Shown here in pieces: positions 48,424-50,640 of a stretch of DNA of 64,000 nucleotides (positions are counted from its first letter, which is position 1; the number at the start of each line of letters is the position of its first letter). Made by a program: the position numbers and the translations under genes. This DNA is from Qipengyuania algicida. Its GTDB lineage: Bacteria > Pseudomonadota > Alphaproteobacteria > Sphingomonadales > Sphingomonadaceae. Location: contig NZ_WTYA01000008.1 in assembly GCF_009828025.1 (NCBI RefSeq), positions 62,001 to 126,000 on the forward strand. The letters run 5' to 3'. A model generated the notes under the pieces. It made no database searches, had not been told where the DNA came from, and worked only from the letters and a program-made list of their open reading frames with translations.

Positions 48424-50420
48424 GCCGTGAGATCGGGCGGAGTCGCCTCGGCCTTCAACATCGCAATCGCCTCGTCGAGTGTCATCACGCGCTGATCCTT
48501 CTCGCCCAGCGTGCGCAACGCCACAGTGCCTTCCTCGGCCTCGCGCTTGCCGACCACAAGCAGCTGCGGAACCTTGGCCAGCGAGTGCTCGCGGACCTTG
48601 TAGTTGATCTTTTCGTTGCGCAGATCGCTCTCGGCGCGCAGGCCCGCCGCTTCCAGCTTGGCCAGCACCTCCTTGGCATAGTCGTCGGCGTCGGAGACGA
48701 TCGTCGCTACCACCGCCTGCACCGGGGCGAGCCACATCGGCAGGCGACCGGCATAGTGCTCGATCAGAATGCCAATGAAGCGCTCATAAGATCCGAAGAT
48801 CGCGCGGTGGAGCATCACCGGGCGATGCTTGTCGCCATCCTCGCCGACATAGCTCGCATCGAGCCTTTCGGGCAGCACGCGGTCCGACTGGATGGTGCCC
48901 ACCTGCCAGGTTCGCCCGATCGCATCGGTCAGATGCCATTCGAGCTTGGGCGCGTAGAAGGCGCCTTCGCCGGGCAGTTCTTCCCAACCGTATTCGGCAT
49001 TGGCCATGCCCGCTTCGGCAACCGCATCGCGCAATTCCTGCTCCGACTTGTCCCACAGCTCCTCGCTGCCGAACCGCATCTCGGGCCGCAGCGCCAGCTT
49101 GATGTCATAGCTGAAGCCGAAATCCTTGTAGACGCTGTCGGCCAGCTCACAGAATTTCTGGACCTCGCCGACCACCTGATCCTCGGTACAGAAGATATGC
49201 GCATCGTCCTGGGTGAACTGGCGCACGCGCATCAGTCCGTGGAGCGCGCCATGCGGTTCGTTGCGGTGGCAGCAGCCCATTTCGCCCAGCCGGATCGGCA
49301 GGTCGCGATAGCTTGTGATGCCCTGTTTGAAGACGAGAACGTGCGCCGGGCAGTTCATCGGCTTCAGCGCCATCCACTCGGCTTCGTCAGAGACCAGCGC
49401 GCCCTCGTCCTCGGTATTGGGCACCTCGTCGGGGATGACGAACATGTTTTCGCGATACTTGCCCCAGTGGCCCGACTGTTCCCACTGGCGGGCATCCATC
49501 ACTTGCGGGGTCTTGATCTCGCGATAGCCGCCGCCGTCCATCTTGCGGCGCATATACGCTTCCAGCTCGCGCCAGATGCGATAGCCTTTGGGGTGCCAGA
49601 AGACGCTGCCATGCGCTTCTTCCTGCAGGTGGAACAGGTCCATCTCGCGCCCCAGCTTGCGGTGGTCGCGCTTGGCGGCCTCTTCCAGCCGGTTGAGATG
49701 CGCGTCGAGCTGCTTCTTGTTGAGCCAGCCGGTGCCATAAATGCGCGTAAGCTGCGCATTCTTCTGGTCGCCGCGCCAGTACGCGCCCGCCACCCGCATC
49801 AACTTGAACGCCTGCGGGTCGAGCTTGCCGGTGCTGGGCAGATGGGGGCCGCGGCACATGTCGAGCCAGTCCTCGCCGCTCCAATACACCGTCAGGTCCT
49901 CGCCCTCTGGCAATTCGGCGGCCCATTCGGCCTTGAAGCTTTCGCCCTCCTCCTTCCAGCGCGCGATCAGATCCTCACGACTCCACACCTCTCGGCGCAG
50001 CGGCTTGTCGGCCTTTATGATCCGCCGCATCTCCTCTTCGATTGCGGGCAGGTCATCCATGCTGAACGGCTCGCGACCCTCGGGCGCCATCACGTCATAA
50101 TAGAACCCGTCGTCGGTCGCCGGGCCGAAGGTAATCTGCGTGCCGGGCCACAACGCCTGCACCGCCTCTGCCAGCACATGGGCATAGTCGTGGCGCGCCA
50201 ATTCGAGCGCATCGGCCTCGTCCCGCGAAGTGACCAGCGCCAGCTGCGCATCACCCTCGAACGGGCGGGTCAGGTCGCGCAGCTCACCATCCACACGCGC
50301 GGCCAGCGCTGCCTTGGCAAGGCCGGGGCCGATCGCCGCGGCGACATCCGCCGGGGTCGATCCCGCGGGCATTTCGCGCACCGATCCATCGGGGAGGCTG
50401 ATCTTGAGAAGTTCCGTCAT
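48420..50420 (-). CDS. thrS: Threonyl-tRNA synthetase
   Basis: A 666-aa class-II synthetase with all domains: N-terminal TGS (residues 1-60), editing domain with His77/His81 (HDYAHVL) and CRGPH, the catalytic core with zinc ligand in MNCPAHV, and the C-terminal anticodon-binding domain. The ATG at 50420 begins the TGS domain; upstream in-frame starts are rejected. A Thr-rich leader ORF and hairpins occupy the preceding 210 bp, suggesting control by threonyl-tRNA charging. A methyltransferase gene is translationally coupled downstream. Confidence 0.97.
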
Positions 50421-50640
50421 CGTTTCCACGCTTGTCCTTGTCGCGGTGGCGCCATGGCACAAGCGGGCGCGCGCCGGAAGTGGGGCGTTGCGAATTGGGT
50501 GAACCGGTTTTCGGGAAGCCAACGCCGCGCCGCCCGAAACCGGGCGACGGAGCCTCGCGTCAGAGCGCGAGCGACCGCCCCCGGGCGAACCGGGTGGTGG
50601 TAGTCAGCGAAATGGCAAATGGTCGAGCCATGGTGAGGAG
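50421..50640 (-). promoter_or_regulatory. Candidate threonine attenuator of thrS
   Basis: Between the leader peptide and thrS are competing secondary structures. Hairpin a, CTCGCG-N6-CGCGAG (50554-50571), encloses the leader stop codon. Hairpin b, CGCCCG-N4-CGGGCG (50531-50546), is terminator-like. The b segment can alternatively pair with CCCGAAAACCGG (reverse complement of 50504-50515) or with a CCGGGGGCG run inside the leader ORF. No T-run follows b, so the mechanism could be Rho-dependent or translational. Confidence 0.5.
50560..50631 (-). CDS. Putative thrS leader peptide with four consecutive Thr codons
   Basis: A 23-codon ORF, read from ATG at 50631 to TGA at 50560-50562. It encodes MARPFAISL, then Thr-Thr-Thr-Thr (ACT ACC ACC ACC, 50593-50604), then an Arg-rich end. 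A run of regulatory codons matching the downstream synthetase is the signature of ribosome-mediated attenuation. No Shine-Dalgarno is evident, but a promoter-like pair places the transcript start at or next to the ATG. Confidence 0.55.

Follow-up and report, generated by a model that had tools for sequence, protein, structure and literature searches.

A threonine-rich leader peptide and competing RNA folds before thrS point to charging-dependent attenuation in Qipengyuania algicida and related Sphingomonadaceae

The gene thrS of Qipengyuania algicida lies on the minus strand of the window, as we call the whole stretch of 64,000 nucleotides that was analyzed (contig NZ_WTYA01000008.1) and to whose positions all coordinates refer. 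It extends from its ATG at 50420 to 48423, and its product matches four Pfam domains of threonyl-tRNA synthetase, namely the TGS, the tRNA_SAD, the class II core and the anticodon-binding domain. Upstream, on the same strand, an open reading frame of 23 codons plus TGA, starting with ATG (50631-50560), ends about 140 bp before thrS. Its sequence and the peptides of relatives mark it as a leader ORF, and it contains four consecutive threonine codons, ACT ACC ACC ACC (50604-50593, minus strand), as putative sensor. An earlier note, made from the sequence alone, had described this frame correctly. Antisense to thrS, a frame of 672 codons is open as well (48585-50603, plus strand), which is probably a by-product of the high G+C content. 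An Rfam scan of the window delivered no family at gathering score, with both the T-box riboswitch and the threonine operon leader unmatched. The fold energy of the window sequence by itself is unremarkable (z = -1.24 for the minimum free energy). Since the fold is not unusually stable, our evidence is comparative and fold energy was not used as support.

The 36 genomes of the same genus (G001-G036) yielded 35 upstream regions; G006 comprises just the 3' part of thrS. A leader with at least three threonines in a row was found in 32 of the 35. The exceptions are one weak leader (L036, STT) and two regions without a leader: L029 has lost it and has kept the thrS-proximal promoter-like element and RNA segment 6 described below, while the upstream region of L035 differs from the rest of the genus. 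An ORF in L029 is a chance ORF and was left out of the count. The leader of relatives typically reads M-x6-TTTTTTT-PGxRGRxVA. In 115 distinct leaders threonine is encoded by ACC (404), ACT (155), ACG (115) and ACA (35); the longest run ranges from 2 to 9 residues across distinct leaders, and the N-terminal residues vary. The window leader is among the weaker members, with its run of four, since 70 of the 115 have a longest run of 5-7. As threonine is kept while synonymous codons change, selection appears to act on the threonine residues rather than on the nucleotide string. An alignment of related upstream regions had been proposed in the earlier note as a check on the threonine run, and the run is indeed conserved, both within the genus and across many other genera of the family, while the synonymous codons that encode it vary. 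For a wider count, we accepted ORFs with an ATG or GTG start, at least four threonines in eight codons and the right distance from thrS. Of 253 regions fetched from upstream of thrS, 149 hold such an ORF, versus 2 of 253 on the opposite strand; of the 221 distinct regions 119 do, versus 1 of 221. Neither 149/253 nor 119/221 is a frequency for the family, as the regions were selected as a mixture in which loci with a leader abound. The threonine-rich leader before thrS is real and far beyond chance.

Leader and spacer comprise seven RNA segments on the minus strand that can pair in two ways. Segment 1 (CCCGG, 50594-50590) pairs with segment 2 (CCGGGGGCGG, 50584-50575), which lies within the leader ORF, as long as segment 1 is not covered by a ribosome. 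Alternatively, segment 2 can pair with segment 3 (CCGTCGCCCGG, 50550-50540), whose other partner is segment 4 (CGGGCGG, 50536-50530) in the hairpin 3:4. Together with the preceding TTT, segment 4 can also pair with segment 5 (CCCGAAAACCG, 50515-50505), the pairing strand being TTTCGGG at 50539-50533. Finally, segment 4' (GGCGTTG, 50526-50520) forms the 5' strand and segment 6 (CAACGCC, 50490-50484) the 3' strand of a long-range helix 4':6; relatives carry counterparts of segment 6 such as GACACC, GACGCC or AAGCC. Two fold sets result, {1:2, 3:4, 4':6} and {2:3, 4:5}, and they are mutually exclusive because bases are shared and helices cross. Two hairpins had been proposed in the earlier note. 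The one at 50546-50531 is present and has alternative partners upstream and downstream. The other, enclosing the stop codon of the leader, was dropped, as its pairing equals that of shuffles (75.9% versus 75.9%) and covariation is lacking. The downstream pairing of segments 4' and 6 had been missed.

Covariation supports the existence of both fold sets. It was scored in two alignments, A1 with 25 sequences and A2 with 95 sequences; the latter was aligned to the covariance model R1 and consequently leans towards the first fold of R1. In A1, 96.7% of the cells are paired for the first set and 98.3% for the second, compared to 36 to 65% in slid controls, and no shuffle of 500 reached the covariation score of either set. 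The count of pairs with changes on both sides is weak there, being reached by 41 of 500 shuffles for the first set and 12 of 500 for the second. In A2, the first set scores 0.244 versus 0.121 in shuffles and the second 0.128 versus 0.076, with 0 of 500 shuffles as high in either case; both-sided changes occur at 15 of the 20 pairs of the first set and at six pairs of the second, the latter count being reached by 28 of 500 shuffles. Helix 1:2 is paired in 93.7% of the cells of A1, where it shows no both-sided change, and in 91.9% of those of A2, where all six pairs show such changes. Helix 4':6 covaries most: in A2 both-sided changes are found at all seven pairs, with 94.1% of the cells paired, and its strands read, for example, GGCGTTT/AAACGCC, GGTGTC/GACACC, GGCGTC/GACGCC or GCGGCTT/AAGCCGC. 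When segment 6 was swapped between species, the own segment beat the swapped mean in 86 of 104 sequences. The separation is weak (19.1 versus 17.4), in part since one helix is common to many of the sequences and in part since other helices were at times selected by the search. In three regions of the genus (L016, L028, L031) segments 5 and 6 are separated by a palindromic, REP-like insert some 90 bases long, and helix 4':6 is intact in all three. The compensatory changes in the competing stems for which the earlier note had proposed to look are thus present in both alignments.

Model R1, built from 25 sequences, matches 148 of 397 genomes of the family Sphingomonadaceae and 43 of its 96 genera, with one match per genome. 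The remaining 249 family genomes have no match which, together with the leaderless L029 and L035, indicates that the leader is dispensable. Within the order, 28 of 147 genomes match and all of these belong to the own family, the 147 including an uncounted share of other families. From the matched loci 70 were fetched, 30 as returned by the search (one being the window itself) and 40 chosen to span genera. The thrS start lies within the fetched stretch at 67 of them, and at one more (L086) thrS follows an inserted ORF, so that 68 of 70 matches precede thrS. The other two are weak (L094 and L101, E about 0.002 and 0.001), have no thrS start in the fetched stretch and are probably false. A match of E 0.009 (L096) lies before thrS and has no threonine leader. 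Among the best 80 of at least 587 named thrS loci, 24 match R1 at E 0.001 or better. They include Parerythrobacter, Allopontixanthobacter, Altererythrobacter, Erythrobacter, Pelagerythrobacter, Porphyrobacter, Croceicoccus and Blastomonas, as well as four Novosphingobium, one Sphingorhabdus, one Sphingopyxis and three loci labelled Sphingomonas. No match was obtained for the remaining loci of Sphingomonas and Sphingopyxis among these 80, nor for any of the Sphingobium loci there. In 40 chosen family regions without an R1 match, two pass the threshold of four threonines in eight codons, neither with the typical sequence. That the frame might instead encode a conserved small protein with a function of its own, or have arisen by chance, is hardly credible to us: the well conserved R-G-R-x-x-A tail would fit a protein, yet segment 2 falls on the RGR codons, whose conservation is explained by RNA pairing, and both the variable N-terminus and the changing length of the threonine run speak against it, as do the position of nearly all fetched matches before thrS and the single hit on the opposite strand of the distinct regions.

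Promoter-like sequences flank the module on both sides. Before the leader, the putative promoter P1 (50666-50638, minus strand) consists of TTGAAC (50666-50661), 17 nt and TATCTC (50643-50638), and the A of the leader ATG lies 7 nt past the latter box. A logo of 114 distinct leaders aligned at the ATG, for which the first ATG giving 17-24 codons was taken if several were possible, shows TTGA at -36 to -33, TAT at -13 to -11 and, in 77%, C at -1; a Shine-Dalgarno sequence before the ATG is absent. Since the boxes are in register with the ATG and a Shine-Dalgarno sequence is lacking in the logo, we predict a leaderless leader ORF; this pattern suggests that transcription starts at or beside the ATG. 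Behind the module, a two-box element CTT-N18-TGCCA (50480-50455, minus strand) stands out by its fixed spacing. The general form CTT-N18-TGNCA occurs in 161 of all 253 fetched regions and in 130 of the 221 distinct ones, whereas 13 other spacings gave counts of 0-7 each. Among the distinct regions, 106 of the 119 that have a leader contain it, as do 24 of the 102 that have none. It often lies inside a GC-rich inverted repeat, the two arms of which change in concert. We read the element as a putative second, thrS-proximal promoter (P2), though it may partly be an RNA hairpin, and it probably supplies basal thrS expression.

The same region bears on another explanation. In Escherichia coli, thrS carries a translational operator that is bound by threonyl-tRNA synthetase, whereas the T-box of Firmicutes binds uncharged tRNA directly; both control the same gene, but do so without a leader peptide. 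If the enzyme repressed its own synthesis here in a way like that of E. coli, through a hairpin resembling an anticodon arm just before the thrS start, the leader would be secondary. Near the thrS start, many upstream regions, though not all, can indeed form a GC stem about the UGU-containing CUUGUGCCAU. However, UGU is not kept, as CUAUGCC, UUCUGCC and ACUGGCA occur in its place, and the CTT and TGNCA boxes hold their exact spacing of 18 nt although the stems vary, as would rather be expected of a DNA promoter. Such autorepression would also leave the leader unexplained, and we regard it as very improbable.

Taken together, the locus combines an upstream ORF with a run of cognate codons and exclusive pairings between which a stalled and a finished ribosome could select. 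We therefore read it as a ribosome-mediated attenuator that senses the charging of tRNA-Thr and controls thrS, a reading to which we assign a probability of roughly 80% and which upholds that of the earlier note, namely that a leader peptide senses threonyl-tRNA charging. Very probably, thrS expression is raised when charged Thr-tRNA runs short. Transcription would start at or beside the leader AUG, as the boxes in register suggest. Segment 2 precedes the stop codon and segment 3 follows it, and a finishing ribosome consequently covers segment 2, while a ribosome on the threonine run covers segment 1. If Thr-tRNA is plentiful, the ribosome would reach the stop codon and cover segment 2, such that 3:4 and then 4':6 form and transcription halts before thrS. 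If Thr-tRNA is scarce, it would stall on the threonine run and cover segment 1, so that 2:3 pairs and segment 4 is free for segment 5. Once 4:5 has formed, 4' would be trapped in its loop, helix 4':6 could not form and transcription would proceed into thrS. We infer from the logic of the ribosome footprint which of the two fold sets represents the ON state.

How transcription would halt deserves separate consideration. A run of at least five T in eight follows the strongest hairpin behind the leader in 0 of 104 sequences and is likewise missing at the leader of the window, just as the earlier note had stated for the latter. Such a run follows segment 6 in 5 of the 104 and lies somewhere between stop codon and CTT box in 24. 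A classical intrinsic terminator, that is a hairpin with a U-run, was thus found at this leader neither in the window nor in the 104 sequences, and the lack of this customary exit weighs against our reading. Between 44001 and 64000 of the window, 11 U-run terminators were detected while 14.5 were expected from shuffles. As they are not enriched in these 20 kb, little can be concluded in this genome from a missing U-run, and a Rho-dependent or U-less exit becomes the likely one. Termination would probably be Rho-dependent or rely on a U-less hairpin terminator; in the Rho variant, segment 5, which is rich in C and U, would be unpaired together with the bases that follow it in the replete fold alone.

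The missing U-run would suit an output at the level of translation or mRNA stability, in which the same sensor acts through folds that mask or expose an RNase site or the region of the thrS start. Instructive here is a genus in which, in four genomes (L270-L273), an ORF separates the module from thrS. As judged by eye, helix 4':6 has remained upstream of this ORF, and the module hence belongs to the leader and not to the thrS start; by eye again, segment 6 ends up about 10 nt before the start of the inserted ORF, which would favor a translational or stability output. In 34 sequences of the own genus, however, a distance of 55-87 nt separates the end of segment 6 from the thrS ATG, and the promoter-like element usually lies in between. 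Furthermore, folding of 115 sequences with ribosome masks predicts practically the same accessibility of the thrS ribosome binding site in the free (0.49), the stalled (0.49) and the stop state (0.50), being higher upon stalling in 17 sequences and at the stop in 23. Sequestration of this site is thus unsupported, and we consider a translational or stability output unlikely. Given the lack of a U-run and the equal accessibility, we infer a transcriptional exit, perhaps a Rho-dependent one. The inserted ORF itself (387-893 in L270, with counterparts in L271-L273) encodes 168 amino acids beginning with MRYYIDTEFNG and has no Pfam match; by eye we presume a resemblance to a 3'-5' exoribonuclease. 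An inserted ORF of this type would fall under threonine control.

Threonine leaders before thrS are found in other alphaproteobacterial families as well. In family f72, 7 of 10 thrS loci (L334-L339, L343) carry a threonine-rich leader followed by a hairpin and T6, and in most of them TTGACA and GATATT boxes that resemble a promoter lie shortly upstream of the leader start. This independent leader, with its hairpin and T6, indicates that thrS can be under leader-type control. In family f73, where 40 of 41 genomes had thrS, all 30 sampled loci (L284 plus 29 from the search, L345-L373) show a short leader that ends in RT and has at least three threonines in eight. This leader, of the MDRLFFPAPTTLTTVRT type, has a nearly invariant 3' end and is followed by a nearly invariant hairpin structure that differs from the one of Sphingomonadaceae. 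Family f73 perhaps represents a different, translational design. A GTTCG stretch near the thrS start of f73 could pair with the leader end. In family f58, to which genome G559 belongs, a threonine-run leader occurs in 2 of 30 thrS loci (L304, L305), besides one distant, chance-like ORF, and we read the leader there as recent or mostly lost. Across 14 regions from the order and 29 from a search of the class (one of which, L275, belongs to the own family), five have an ORF with at least four threonines in eight. Two of these (L044, L283) lie more than 400 bp upstream and appear chance-like; the remaining three are L284, L288 and L290. These occurrences hint at more than one origin of thrS leaders within the Alphaproteobacteria.

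Comparison with known systems reveals both likeness and difference. The pheST, trp, his and thr attenuators of E. coli follow the logic of 1:2, 2:3 and 3:4 with stalling on cognate codons, which the thrS leader shares. In contrast, they possess a U-run terminator and a Shine-Dalgarno sequence before the leader, and they lack a relay of 4:5 versus 4':6. The leaders of f72 and f73 are likewise short, with pairs or runs of threonine and promoter-like boxes close before the start, but f72 ends in a hairpin with T6 and f73 has its own nearly invariant structure. The earlier note knew of no described thrS leader of such a type, a statement that no longer stands: in Streptomyces lividans TK24 a leader named thrL is reported to precede thrS, which encodes 18 amino acids with two threonines on a leaderless transcript (PMC8079986). 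Its hairpin without a U-run is a further likeness to our leader; the S. lividans leader differs in its 18 amino acids with two threonines, was reported from one genome and is unlike in sequence by eye (PMC8079986). It was the only thrS leader peptide found in a search of the open-licence literature, as far as the accessible text of its hits extends, and with it in print the leader of Sphingomonadaceae is a well-supported variant of a kind already known. Before cysS of Rhodobacterales, the uORFC-8-2 motif comprises tandem cognate codons and a 3' U-run, and ribosome-mediated attenuation was proposed (PMC8632094). It resembles our case as a leader with tandem cognate codons before an alphaproteobacterial tRNA synthetase gene; however, it features Cys with two codons, two prominent stems and a U-run, while thrS of Sphingomonadaceae features a Thr run, seven segments and no U-run. 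In Caulobacter crescentus, a translated leader CDS precedes trpS, again an alphaproteobacterial tRNA synthetase gene, though for a different synthetase (PMC4117421).

Beyond sensing as such, we tentatively propose, at somewhat less than even odds, a seven-segment relay attenuator without a U-run, in which 2:3 would lead to 4:5 and thereby exclude a helix 4':6 whose end abuts a box like that at -35, part of a second promoter for thrS; its sensor ORF would be leaderless, its exit Rho-dependent or of an undescribed type, and leader control of thrS would have arisen several times in Alphaproteobacteria. The covariation of 4' and 6 makes a U-less exit directly testable, and the leader of Sphingomonadaceae offers a probably leaderless sensor ORF. 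With this locus, the threonyl-tRNA synthetase of a large environmental family joins the genes for which comparative evidence strongly favors a leader that responds to tRNA charging, and for thrS such leader control would stand beside the repressor of E. coli and the T-box of Firmicutes as a further solution.
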